DNA of 64,000 bases from Chitinophaga alhagiae. GTDB lineage: Bacteria; Bacteroidota; Bacteroidia; Chitinophagales; Chitinophagaceae. The position numbers and the translations under genes are program-made. The notes below the pieces were generated by a model. The model saw nothing but the letters and a program-made list of their open reading frames with translations. It was not told where the DNA came from and searched no databases. This document shows positions 4,938-13,543 of the stretch, piece after piece (position 1 is the stretch's first letter; each line of letters begins with the position of its first letter). The stretch is from assembly GCF_003568665.1 (NCBI RefSeq), contig NZ_QXMH01000001.1, positions 434,001 to 498,000 on the forward strand, read 5' to 3'.

Positions 4938-5900
4938 ATGGCAAAACAAGTGGAATTACTCATTGTAGGCGGAGGCCCTATTGGAATGGCATGCGCTTTG
5001 GCGGCACAAAAGGCGGGCATCAATTACCTGGTAGTAGAAAAAGGTTGCCTTGTCAACTCCCTTTACCGCTACCCCATCAATATGACCTTTTTCTCCACCA
5101 GCGAGCGGCTGGAAATAGGCGGCGTACCCTTTGTTTCCAACAATGCCAAACCCACGCGGCCCGAAGCGCTGGAGTATTACAGACGGGTAGCGTCTTCCCA
5201 AAACATCCGCATCAACCTGTTTGAAAAGGTGGAAAATATTCGGCCTGATGACAATGGTTATACGGTCATTACCGGCAAGGAAATTTATCATACCCGCTAC
5301 ATCATCGTTGCCACCGGTTTTTACGACATTCCCAACCTGCTCAATATTCCCGGCGAAGACCTGGCCAAGGTAACCCACTATTACAAAGACCCGCATTATT
5401 ATGCTACGCAGAAAGTACTGGTAGTAGGGGCCAATAACTCCTCCGTGGATGCCGCGCTGGAAACCTACCGCAAAGGCGCTGAAGTCACCATGGTAATACG
5501 GGAAGGAGAAATAGGCCGCCGCGTGAAATACTGGGTAAAACCTGATATCGAGAACCGCATCAAGGAAGGCAGCATCAAGGCCTGGTTTCATTCACACCTC
5601 ACCGCCATACGTGACACGGAGGTAGACATCAATACCCCCGAAGGCCCTATCACCATTCCCAATGATTTTGTAATTGCCGCTACCGGCTATCAGCCTGATT
5701 TCAACTTCCTTGAAAAAACAGGCATCACCCTGTCTGCTGACGCTGTACGGGCCCCCTCCTACAACCCCGAAACCATGGAAACCAACCTGCCGGGCATTTA
5801 CCTGGCGGGCGTGGTATGCGGGGGGATGAATACGCATGTGTGGTTCATTGAAAATTCAAGGGAGCATGCTGACAAGATTGTGGCGCATATGAGAAGATAG
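4938..5900 (+). CDS. ypdA: YpdA-family bacillithiol disulfide reductase (putative)
   Basis: The 320-residue flavoprotein has an N-terminal FAD dinucleotide fold (IVGGGPIGMACALAAQKAG), the YpdA-specific stretch YPINMTFFSTSERLEIGG followed by NAKPTRPEALEYYRRV, and a central NADPH fold (VLVVGANNSSVDAALE). It lacks the CxxC of thioredoxin reductase, as YpdA proteins do. YpdA (Bdr) reduces bacillithiol disulfide with NADPH, so bacillithiol use by this organism is implied, not shown. TAATTTTAG just before the ATG is a near match to the -7 promoter box. Confidence 0.85.
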   Translation: MAKQVELLIVGGGPIGMACALAAQKAGINYLVVEKGCLVNSLYRYPINMTFFSTSERLEIGGVPFVSNNAKPTRPEALEYYRRVASSQNIRINLFEKVENIRPDDNGYTVITGKEIYHTRYIIVATGFYDIPNLLNIPGEDLAKVTHYYKDPHYYATQKVLVVGANNSSVDAALETYRKGAEVTMVIREGEIGRRVKYWVKPDIENRIKEGSIKAWFHSHLTAIRDTEVDINTPEGPITIPNDFVIAATGYQPDFNFLEKTGITLSADAVRAPSYNPETMETNLPGIYLAGVVCGGMNTHVWFIENSREHADKIVAHMRR

Positions 5901-5926
5901 AATTCCCGGAAAGCGCATAAATTATG

Positions 5927-5954
5927 TTTGTTACCAAGAAAAAACGTATCTTTG
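5927..5954 (+). promoter_or_regulatory. orphan promoter TTTG-N16-TATCTTTG
   Basis: TTTG at 5927-5930 and TATCTTTG at 5947-5954 match the Bacteroidota -33/-7 elements with 16-nt spacing. No plus-strand protein gene follows; a structured stretch ending in a hairpin does. Confidence 0.55.
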
Positions 5955-5960
5955 TATCAG

Positions 5961-6044
5961 AATATTCAAGGCAGTTTGCCGTCAAATTTTTGGACTGGGG
6001 TGTCCCCGATCGGTATAAAGCCAGGCGTAAGTCTGGCTTTATAC
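5961..6044 (+). ncRNA. candidate small structured RNA
   Basis: Downstream of the orphan promoter the sequence can fold into three stem-loops in a row: GGCA-GTT-TGCC (5970-5980), GGGG-TGT-CCCC (5997-6007) and a long terminal hairpin (6013-6044). The expected transcript is about 85-90 nt. It matches no RNA family I know. It ends exactly where the convergent DUF3800 gene stops, so it might also overlap that mRNA's 3' end. The call is inference from promoter, fold and terminator only. Confidence 0.4.
6013..6044. terminator. hairpin between ypdA and the DUF3800 gene
   Basis: A 12-bp perfect stem (6013-6024 with 6033-6044), extendable by two pairs to a GTAA loop. The T tract is weak (TTTATGG on plus), so it is either a modest bidirectional terminator or the 3' hairpin of the candidate RNA. 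Confidence 0.6.
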
Positions 6045-6045
6045 T

Positions 6046-6780
6046 TTATGGATATATTTTAAGACCGTACAACTTTCCTTTCTTGGCATAGATCTTTTCA
6101 CGGATAATATCAAATGAAGGATTCGGCCGGTTCTCTTCTATTACATGTCTGGCAATTGGATAAGCCACCAAATCAGCCAGCTGCAGCCCGTTAATATTTT
6201 CCCTTTTGCTTTTGAATACAATTGAAAGTTTATACCGTTGAAGCCGGTCAGGGGAGATATAGGAAGTACCTCTGGCTAATAGTCTCTGAAAATGCTCATG
6301 CAGTTGCCTGTCCTCTTTTGGCCCTCTCTTTTCAATAATGATCTGTAGCTCCTTCTGATCGTCTTTAATATCGTCCAGAAAAAAAATGGTGCGTTCAATA
6401 ATAAACGACAAAGCAATTTCATACACATCATTACCAAGCCGGCCAAATCTATTGATATATTTGTCTTTTCTTATTGCTGACGCAAAGACGATGTAGTTAT
6501 TGTCCCGTACAATGTCATTGATATTTTCATAAAATCTGCGCTTTTTGTCAAGGTCAAACAGCACAGTAAATTCTTTTTCGCATTTCCGGATATCCCGGGA
6601 ATGAAATATCACATGTGTATTGTTCCAGAAAGCCTGCTTCACGGCGTTGATGCTATTTCTGACAAGTTGATAATCTTCTTCCCGAATTAGTACGCCGCAA
6701 AGTAAAAATACCGGAAAGCTCTCGTCAATATGTGTCAATCCATGATTTCCACTTTCATCCATGTATAAGCAATACTTCAT
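6046..6780 (-). CDS. DUF3800 family protein
   Basis: The 244-residue protein starts with YLYMDESG-type sequence (MKYCLYMDESGNHG) and ends with QLADLVAYPIARHV, both hallmarks of DUF3800, a family with an RNase H-like fold predicted to act on nucleic acid. Conserved acidic residues fit a metal-dependent nuclease, but activity is not established. DUF3800 genes are often found alone or in mobile and defence regions. The gene is visibly richer in A/T than its neighbours and interrupts a run of housekeeping genes, suggesting recent gain. No partner protein gene is adjacent; a candidate small RNA converges on its 3' end. Confidence 0.85.
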   Translation of the reverse strand: MKYCLYMDESGNHGLTHIDESFPVFLLCGVLIREEDYQLVRNSINAVKQAFWNNTHVIFHSRDIRKCEKEFTVLFDLDKKRRFYENINDIVRDNNYIVFASAIRKDKYINRFGRLGNDVYEIALSFIIERTIFFLDDIKDDQKELQIIIEKRGPKEDRQLHEHFQRLLARGTSYISPDRLQRYKLSIVFKSKRENINGLQLADLVAYPIARHVIEENRPNPSFDIIREKIYAKKGKLYGLKIYP

Positions 6781-6863
6781 GAGTTTTAGTCACGTTTGGT
6801 TTAAGATATTGTTTATTTTGAATGGTTATCTGGTTGACTTTTTTGATGCCCGGGGCAGGCTTT

Positions 6864-7880
6864 TCACACCACATTCACCTCCCGCTCCAGCGCTACCCCG
6901 AACTTCTCCCGCACACTGTCCAGCACCCTGGTAGACAGTGCATAAATGTCCGCCCCATTTGCATGGCCGTAGTTTACCAGCACCAGCGCCTGCCGGCCGT
7001 GTACGCCCGCATCCCCCTCGCGGAAACCTTTCCAGCCGCATTGTTCTATCAGCCAGCCGGCTGCCAGCTTGTAACGGTTGCCGGGCAAGGGATAAGCCAC
7101 AATACCGGGGAACGCGGCTTTTAATTGTTCATATTTTTCAGCGCTGATCTCGGGGTTTTTGAAGAAACTGCCGGCATTGCCTATTTCAGCGGGGTTGGGC
7201 AGTTTGGAAGAGCGGATGTTGATCACCGCCTGGCTCACGTCGCGGATAGTGGGGTGGGATATGCCCATTCTCTCCAGTTCCTGCTCTATAGCGCCATAGC
7301 TGGTATTGATAGCCGGTTTTTTGAGCAGGCGGTAGGTAACGTGGAGGATCACGAACTGGTTTTTGTACTGCCGTTTGAACACGCTTTCGCGGTAACCGAA
7401 CTCGCAGGCGGCGTTGTTGAAATGCACCGGTTGCTGACTGGCTGTTTCCAGGGCTTCCAGTTCGTAGAAGGTATCTTTTATTTCCACGCCGTAGGCGCCG
7501 ATGTTCTGCATGGGGCTGGCGCCTACGTTGCCGGGTATCAGGGACAGGTTTTCCAGGCCGCCGAGGTCCTGCTCAATGCAGTGCATCACAAACTGGTGCC
7601 AGTTCTCCCCCGCGCCGGCCTTTACGTATACATGATCTTCGTCTTCCCCCACTTTATTGATGCCTTTGATCTCGTTTTTCAGCACCAGGCCGTCAAAGTT
7701 CTGCGTGAACAGCACGTTGCTGCCGCCGCCCAGTATCATTTTGGGTACCTGTTGCCAGCGCGGGTCTTGCAGTATTTCCTGCAGCGCGGCCATGGAATGG
7801 AAAGTGGTGAAATAACGGGCCGTAGCGTCGAGGCTGAAAGTATTGTATGGTCTTAGTGAAACATTTTCGGTTACCTTCAT
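6864..7880 (-). CDS. murB: UDP-N-acetylenolpyruvoylglucosamine reductase MurB
   Basis: MurB makes UDP-MurNAc by NADPH-dependent reduction in the second step of peptidoglycan precursor synthesis. The 338-residue length matches E. coli-type (type I) MurB. Visible motifs are the FAD-binding GGGSNVLF, NIGAYGVEI, catalytic Ser238 in AGSFFKNP, and a C-terminal Glu in LEREVNVV. The reading frame is open far upstream of the true start; ATG at 7880 is chosen because the upstream part overlaps the divergent gene and has no MurB similarity. Confidence 0.95.
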   Translation of the reverse strand: MKVTENVSLRPYNTFSLDATARYFTTFHSMAALQEILQDPRWQQVPKMILGGGSNVLFTQNFDGLVLKNEIKGINKVGEDEDHVYVKAGAGENWHQFVMHCIEQDLGGLENLSLIPGNVGASPMQNIGAYGVEIKDTFYELEALETASQQPVHFNNAACEFGYRESVFKRQYKNQFVILHVTYRLLKKPAINTSYGAIEQELERMGISHPTIRDVSQAVINIRSSKLPNPAEIGNAGSFFKNPEISAEKYEQLKAAFPGIVAYPLPGNRYKLAAGWLIEQCGWKGFREGDAGVHGRQALVLVNYGHANGADIYALSTRVLDSVREKFGVALEREVNVV

Positions 7881-13332: not shown

Positions 13333-13407
13333 GGGAGTTTAGCTCAGTTGGTTCAGAGCATCTGCCTTACAAGCAGAGGGTCGGCGGTTCGACCCCGTCA
13401 ACTCCCA
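13333..13407 (+). tRNA. tRNA-Val (anticodon UAC), copy 1
   Basis: A 75-nt cloverleaf: acceptor GGGAGTT/AACTCCC, D arm GCTC...GAGC, anticodon stem TCTGC/GCAGA with loop CTTACAA (anticodon TAC, reads GUA), T loop TTCGACC, discriminator A. CCA is not encoded. Confidence 0.97.
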
Positions 13408-13468: not shown

Positions 13469-13543
13469 GGGAGTTTAGCTCAGTTGGTTCAGAGCATCTG
13501 CCTTACAAGCAGAGGGTCGGCGGTTCGACCCCGTCAACTCCCA
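13469..13543 (+). tRNA. tRNA-Val (anticodon UAC), copy 2
   Basis: Identical in sequence to copy 1 and separated from it by 61 nt with no promoter box in between, so both are probably cut from one transcript that ends at the terminator just downstream. Confidence 0.97.

Follow-up and report, generated by a model that had tools for sequence, protein, structure and literature searches.

DUF3800 is, by its Pfam name, a protein family of unknown function, and Weinberg and colleagues are said to have described, in 2017, RNA motifs designated DUF3800 motifs I to XI. Rfam holds DUF3800-I (RF02969) and DUF3800-IX (RF02968), as recorded in the accessible portion of the Rfam 15 paper. These Rfam motifs resemble the element described here in being structured noncoding RNAs (ncRNAs) located next to DUF3800 genes; however, the DUF3800-I model spans 115 positions compared with 65 in ours, and no Rfam DUF3800 model matched the present RNA in the scans described below. 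In the parts of the literature that were available for examination, the Rfam motifs were given neither a function nor a link to phages. The available part of one further study mentions an earlier link of DUF3800 to putative ncRNAs and presents a published model of the DUF3800 domain as an RNase H fold "with a catalytic rearrangement" (PMC10910872). Neither the RNA class nor the phage hairpins reported below are described in the titles and opening lines of abstracts of the open-access papers listed on these subjects; an overlap with a motif outside Rfam is not excluded.

Here, we analyze a small element that faces a DUF3800 gene. As judged by comparison of many genomes, it is a conserved small-RNA gene, as an earlier note on this DNA had surmised, with its transcription inferred. 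The presence of look-alikes of its core hairpin in phages, together with the company that the RNA keeps with DUF3800 in many bacteria, suggests an RNA-controlled antiviral module.

The Locus and Its Predicted RNA

Between the convergent ypdA and murB genes of the window (the whole stretch of DNA that was analyzed, 64,000 nucleotides in length), a small-RNA gene (5927-6046) faces a DUF3800 gene on the minus strand (6046-6780; table 1). Among the other members of the genus, murB is present in the ypdA neighborhood at 26 of 28 loci. Of the 12 nearest empty sites, 10 have the two stop codons adjoining or almost adjoining each other; more distant species of the genus have gaps of up to about 250 nt, too small for DUF3800. 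The window therefore seems to carry a single insert of roughly 0.96 kb, composed of promoter, RNA, and DUF3800, whose ends are not fixed. DUF3800 is sporadic, being found in 7 of 79 genomes of the genus (two of the seven with broken frames) and in 5 of 294 genomes of the family. Elsewhere in the window, a closely spaced pair of tRNA genes, equal in Rfam score, lies on the plus strand (13333-13407 and 13469-13543).

Table 1. Coordinates of the features of the window discussed in the text
Feature	Position	Strand	Remark
-33 element TTTG, Bacteroidota-type promoter	5927..5930	+	Sequence pattern
-7 element TATCTTTG	5947..5954	+	16-nt gap after TTTG
Predicted small RNA, ~88 nt	5958..6046	+	Start inferred from promoter; fold z -5.9
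Hairpin 1 (5'), sequence-variable, optional	5970..5980	+	Inside weak outer stem
Conserved core GGACTGGGGTGTCCCCGATCGG	5992..6013	+	Hairpin pairs 5993-6011
Hairpin 3, terminator type	6012..6045	+	Last arm ends at DUF3800 stop (6046-6048)
ypdA	4938-5900	+	Stop 5898-5900
murB	Stop 6864-6866	-	Convergent with ypdA
Probable inserted cassette (RNA gene and DUF3800 gene)	5901..6863	.	Between ypdA and murB stops; exact ends uncertain
DUF3800 protein, 244 aa, RNase H fold predicted	6046..6780	-	PF12686; stop codon 6046-6048

Bacteroidota-type promoters have consensus elements at -33 and -7. The earlier note had read a consensus promoter (5927-5954), followed by no protein gene, as leading into three successive hairpins of which the last is terminator-like. 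The promoter pattern in the window is not significant by itself (3 matches versus 1.78 expected); it becomes convincing because it is conserved. The motif TAnnTTTG lies within 100 nt upstream of the core, on the RNA strand, in 49 of 63 Bacteroidota sequences (62 loci and the window, including two near-duplicate pairs), compared with 8 on the other strand and a mean of 6.6 (maximum 13) in shuffled sequences. The three hairpins were also borne out: the 96 nt from 5955 to 6050 fold into them with -38.9 kcal/mol (z = -5.9), and 0 of 200 shuffles were as good. The core hairpin has the form GGA-NN-GGGG-UGU-CCCC-NN-UCG (5992-6013).

Hairpin 1 is individually weak in the window (p = 0.13). Over 29 leaders its mean z is -1.7, with p < 0.05 in 11; it is absent in some, and in the short-leader loci there is no room for it. 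The spacing from promoter to core is only 4 nt in five loci, and hence there is no leader there that could act as a guide. Longer leaders that resemble each other, with some 65-75 nt before the core, were seen in L086, L105 (second copy), L083, L088, and L148 (for example ACAAAGGTTTC..AACGCTGA..AATCAGCGT in L086 and L105); these possibly constitute an extra RNA domain.

Two parts of the earlier description stood only in a qualified form. The last hairpin is of the terminator type and ends at the DUF3800 stop codon, but a simple terminator scan of the window gave no site there, because the U-tract that follows is short (CTTTATGG). Nor is the RNA entirely free of coding potential, since the element is traversed by a 55-codon frame that begins with ATG (5924-6091) and is also open in part in G031 and G020. 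Over 81 sequences, however, this frame is not kept: it attains at least 45 codons in only 16 and has fewer than 30 codons or no start in 51. A conserved small peptide is therefore unlikely.

Association with DUF3800

When the genome of the window and those of its relatives, 59 in all, were searched at the DNA level, the element had strong matches in three apart from the window itself: G031, G020, and G017. Each match immediately follows the stop codon of a DUF3800 gene; in G020 and G017 the sites are other than ypdA-murB. Linkage was tested with six DUF3800 proteins as queries, and the 80 loci named here are the best 80 of 297, ranked by a protein criterion only. According to their record titles, they include Bacteroidota, Ignavibacteria, a Scalindua MAG, Saccharibacteria MAGs, Proteobacteria, a Tectomicrobia MAG, and a Gemmatimonadetes MAG. 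The core pattern was present in the 3' flank of DUF3800 in all of these best 80 of 297, on the opposite strand and starting 54-81 nt past the last codon, and at each 3' end it was joined by a terminator-type hairpin. Its background elsewhere in these loci was 35 occurrences in 0.98 Mb, or 0.006 per 180 nt. The strict form of the core, GGANNGGGGTGTCCCC, occurred in 54 of 81 sequences versus none in the background.

The RNA alignment comprises 76 of 81 rows (L087 and L100, which are duplicates, were left out, as were L144, L147, and L157), and the covariance model R1 (76 sequences, 65 positions) recovers the RNA in 80 of 80 loci, including the five rows outside the model build, two of them duplicates. 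The window RNA, itself part of the model, scores 74.8 bits. Downstream of DUF3800 there is a single convergent RNA in 78 of the 80 loci. In the others a second copy of the RNA or its core lies beside the first, on the minus strand, in L105 (4017-4081) and, only partial, in L138 (2387-2405); these copies are unexplained.

Among 15 further DUF3800 loci outside the model, R1 finds the RNA at the stop codon in 10: Shinella (two), Methylorubrum, Methylobacterium, Bradyrhizobium, Sinorhizobium meliloti pSymA, Microvirga, Acinetobacter baumannii (a record of 4.1 Mb that is classified as a plasmid), and the phages Pkon1 and JBD68. This set drew on 8 of 66 plasmid and 3 of 5 phage records with a DUF3800 match, and it is not fully independent because one Shinella locus (L223) has almost the same RNA as L156, a locus used in the model. 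R1 gave no match in L055, L057, L162, and L229 and only a hint of 15.8 bits in L056. The protein identities of the five misses (26-38%) and the ten positives (30-37%) overlap, and thus only a part of the DUF3800 family goes with this RNA class. By eye, other, unrelated promoter-plus-hairpin elements face the stop codons of the distant DUF3800 genes of L055-L057; different DUF3800 clades may therefore have different RNAs, and further classes of DUF3800 RNA may exist.

Scans with Rfam at gathering scores found no family at the RNA in the window or in 31 loci, and scans by E-value (window 5900-6100 at E ≤ 5, seven loci at E ≤ 2, and seven at E ≤ 3) found no DUF3800 family. Since no Rfam family reaches its cutoff at the RNA, we class it, on the basis of these scans, as a new class of a known kind, the DUF3800-associated ncRNA; what defines that kind, a structured ncRNA beside DUF3800 genes, is met in 80 of 80 loci (the best 80 of 297) and then in 10 of 15. 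A search of 249 Pseudomonadota genomes with the DUF3800-I model gave no match; controls likewise gave none, and hence the search is uninformative. BjrC68 (RF02353) was considered and rejected as unrelated: it scores 20.6 bits against a cutoff of 39, its consensus lacks the core, and the five loci above the cutoff are without DUF3800 in the stretch examined.

In the 76 aligned sequences, 90.3% of the pairs are standard, versus 77.7% when shuffled and at most 56% when the partner is slid. Two-sided changes fill 206 cells versus 66 in shuffles, and 14 pairs change on both sides; the compensatory changes in the stems, on which the earlier note had let its proposal depend, do exist. Nearly all of them are in hairpin 3, where they affect 12 of its 14 pairs. 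This hairpin covaries strongly, the core only mildly within the alignment: the core helix has only three two-sided cells, and one of its pairs is unpaired in 19 of the 76 sequences. Beyond the aligned sequences the core helix does covary: in JBD68, a G-C replaces an A-U pair that is invariant in the alignment, and viral copies swap other pairs. The RNA variants follow the DUF3800 protein tree, with 17 changes versus 29.8 in shuffles, none of 200 being as low; the tree contains 74 of 81 rows (L087, L100, L138, L148, L152, and L154 were set aside, as was L151, on account of a stop). That the RNA is a regulator or partner of DUF3800 is thus supported by linkage and covariation; its transcription and function are not shown.

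RNAs without DUF3800

With R1 at E ≤ 1e-6, 296 Bacteroidota genomes yielded 20 matches in 18 genomes, 11 of them beside DUF3800 (two partial) and 9 without it. In four of these nine (L418, L421, L422, and L425), the end still resembles, by eye, the C-terminal codons of DUF3800. Six R1 matches above 33 bits were found in the 294 genomes of the family. Two are accompanied by DUF3800 and one by a C-terminal remnant; near the other three there is no convincing DUF3800. At E ≤ 0.01 there were matches in 76 of the 294; almost all of these are weak and were attributed to chance. RNAs with an intact core also stand beside broken DUF3800 frames (G352, G385) or a C-terminal remnant (G181). In one Bacteroidota genus, g160 (L418, L420-L423, L425, L426, and L428), RNAs that lack a detected DUF3800 and have a CUUUU loop variant are common.

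The 17-base core pattern occurs in 37 viral stretches, some nearly identical, 34 without DUF3800 and three with it, as judged only within the 2-15 kb examined of each. The constant company of RNA and DUF3800, for which the earlier note had asked a test, consequently holds in one direction only: the best 80 of 297 DUF3800 loci all have the RNA, but the RNA is without DUF3800 in 9 of 20 Bacteroidota matches and in 34 of 37 viral stretches.

Phage and Viral Copies

Some viral cores (L259, L261, and L265-L267) are flanked by a Bacteroidota-type promoter and, by eye, a terminator. Portal, tape-measure, or tail-fiber genes were found in L264, L284, and L285 (10 proteins tested, two without any match). 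In L268, L269, L282, L289, and L290, the two halves of a tRNA-Leu-like D-arm exactly flank the core; L273 and L283 have a similar appearance, and a narrower pattern for this arrangement occurs in 14 contigs. Exact bacterial core sequences were also found in phage tRNA-like genes. When the core was excised from the 37 viral stretches, ARAGORN called a tRNA across the junction in only two (L289 and L293), and most of the viral carriers are therefore tRNA-like at best and not ordinary tRNAs.

Among the matches listed, 58 of the 120 sequences inserted at this D-loop position in phage tRNA-like genes qualify as core-like hairpins, versus a shuffled mean of 0.25 and maximum of 2; the rule for "core-like" was set after the inserts had been inspected. 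These 58, again among the matches listed, include 27 with a UGU loop and 14 with GGGGTGTCCCC, and 30 are distinct. A T-arm-like sequence follows 50 of the 58 and also 30 of the 62 other inserts listed. No DUF3800 was found in the 120 insert loci listed, within the stretches examined. The D-loop hairpins vary more than the bacterial core, their first pair being TA in 22, AT in 21, GC in 10, and CG in 5 of the matches listed.

A related D-loop graft pattern was absent from 148 Bacteroidota genomes. The JBD68 cassette had no match in E. coli genomes, one proteobacterial core pattern none in viral contigs, and one L266 RNA none in named phages.

The Protein and Its Neighbors

The DUF3800 protein matches PF12686 with 70.1 bits (gathering 21; E = 4e-19), and its AlphaFold2 model has a pLDDT of 94. 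The best solved match is a class II RNase H, 1eke (TM 0.53-0.58, Z 11.9, 168 residues at 3.5 Å), with PIWI/Argonaute domains ranking lower (Z 9.1 and less). Residues D8, E9, E129, E150, and D203 are invariant in 51 sequences; D8 and E9, of the invariant DESG motif, resemble the D-E pair of RNase HII. As modeled, DUF3800 is predicted to have an RNase H fold, its nuclease activity being only inferred. A sequence search of the PDB gave one weak match, a MarR regulator (E 0.05), which was not used.

Type I restriction-modification (R-M) genes lie within about 3 kb of the pair in 18 of 78 loci (duplicates removed), between L083 and L158. Fourteen of these 18 have hsdR downstream of, and on the same strand as, DUF3800, the RNA lying between the two genes on the opposite strand; the full order hsdM-hsdS-DUF3800-hsdR is found in six loci. 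Cas9 adjoins the pair in 4 of the 78 (L103, L104, L114, and L141). One example each of the R-M and Cas9 neighbors was checked with Pfam. A small control of 25 other loci of 3 kb contained no R-M or Cas9 genes. The window's own DUF3800-RNA copy has no type I restriction or Cas9 neighbor. With PADLOC and NCBIfam, a weak Csa5-like match and one other fell below the curated cutoffs and were regarded as noise; PADLOC gave nothing convincing.

Discussion

The constant RNA-protein pair, an RNA that outlives broken genes, the defense neighbors, and the phage look-alikes are together best fitted by an RNA-restrained nuclease. The RNA would bind and restrain the RNase-H-fold nuclease of an antiviral module and phages would mimic the RNA; binding and function being inferred, we give this an even chance of being correct. 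The small-RNA gene and the convergent DUF3800 gene would constitute a two-part, sporadically spread module, in which the RNA would be made from its own promoter and its core hairpin (GGA...UGU...UCG) would be bound by DUF3800, the putative nuclease. The bound protein would be kept inactive, as by an RNA antitoxin, until phage infection or loss of the RNA released it. Whether it stands by itself or next to type I restriction and Cas9 genes, such a module may be retained as an antiviral supplement, and phages may counter it with hairpin copies of their own.

By analogy, the asymmetry would be that expected of antitoxins: none of the 80 DUF3800 loci (the best 80 of 297) is without the RNA, yet there are RNAs without an intact DUF3800. 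Against the restrained nuclease it must be said that data on transcript, binding, and toxicity are absent and that the direction of control is inferred only; moreover, there is no convincing PADLOC match, the core helix has few two-sided changes, and the neighborhood control is small. The layout is also unlike that of type III antitoxins, which are tandem-repeat RNAs on the same strand as, and upstream of, the toxin; a single convergent downstream RNA, as in 78 of the 80 loci, does not meet that description. The RNA orphans could mean that the RNA has another partner. With regard to the phages, we propose, with more doubt than conviction, that they graft the core hairpin both into small promoter-terminator RNAs and into tRNA-like genes, at the D-loop, and that the decoy, on the tRNA as a stable scaffold, titrates a widespread RNA-controlled nuclease defense. 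That these hairpins act on DUF3800 is an inference.

Activation instead of inhibition by the RNA is not excluded, and the RNA might be a cofactor or guide needed for DUF3800 activity, as with TnpB and Cas, the phage hairpins then being decoys like the RNA anti-CRISPRs. The RNase H fold and the constant linkage and co-inheritance favor this, as does the DUF3800-domain protein that, according to the accessible part of the source, accompanies a branch of Cas12a2 (PMC10910872). The variable parts of the RNA, however, are mostly self-paired and five loci are almost leaderless, leaving no obvious guide, and the RNA outlives broken DUF3800; we consider a cofactor or guide unlikely, if not negligibly so. 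Alternatively, the core could be read by some other host or phage factor, its linkage to DUF3800 being secondary, or the phage tRNA hairpins could be unrelated look-alikes. The orphan RNAs and the greater variety of the phage D-loop hairpins can be cited in support, but the linkage in 80 of 80 loci (best 80 of 297) and the exact bacterial core sequences in phage tRNA-like genes render it improbable. Control of DUF3800 expression only in cis, by an RNA antisense to the 3' end of the mRNA and a shared terminator, would account for the convergent layout and for an RNA that ends at the DUF3800 stop codon; a cis antisense RNA, however, needs no conserved core, whereas the present one persists across phyla, in orphans, and in phages, and so we attach little credence to such control. 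A chance fold at a bidirectional terminator beside a chance promoter, which the chance-level promoter pattern and weak hairpin 1 of the window might have permitted, is refuted by conservation, covariation, and promoter enrichment and can hardly be entertained.

The hairpin common to DUF3800 RNAs and phage tRNA-like genes, with restriction and Cas9 genes nearby at some of the loci, provides a concrete handle on DUF3800: a single protein, an RNA element of 22 nt, and look-alikes that occur naturally in phages. If the restrained nuclease is real, an RNA-controlled nuclease joins the defense repertoire, along with a counter-defense by RNA mimics on tRNA scaffolds. Comparable systems share some of these features, as far as the available parts of the sources extend. 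PrrC is likewise a nuclease whose gene is linked to those of a type I restriction system, but it is silenced by the R-M enzyme and not by an RNA (PMC2610378). RNA anti-CRISPRs are solitary phage copies of an RNA element of a defense system; they mimic CRISPR repeats and have been tested, whereas the phage hairpins here are without such tests (PMC10651486). In ToxIN, an RNA controls a nuclease and a phage mimic RNA, pseudo-ToxI, defeats the system, but ToxI is a repeat array of pseudoknots, whereas the RNA here is a single convergent hairpin RNA and the protein has a predicted RNase H fold (PMC3475682). AbiF-RCd22 similarly combines a phage-defense protein with a structured ncRNA that neutralizes it by direct binding, in cis and in trans; AbiF, however, is an Abi_2 protein linked to Cas13, and the neutralization of DUF3800 is only inferred (PMC12373285). 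AbiF-RCd22 and ToxIN with its pseudo-ToxI are working analogues of the present module, rather than families that contain it.
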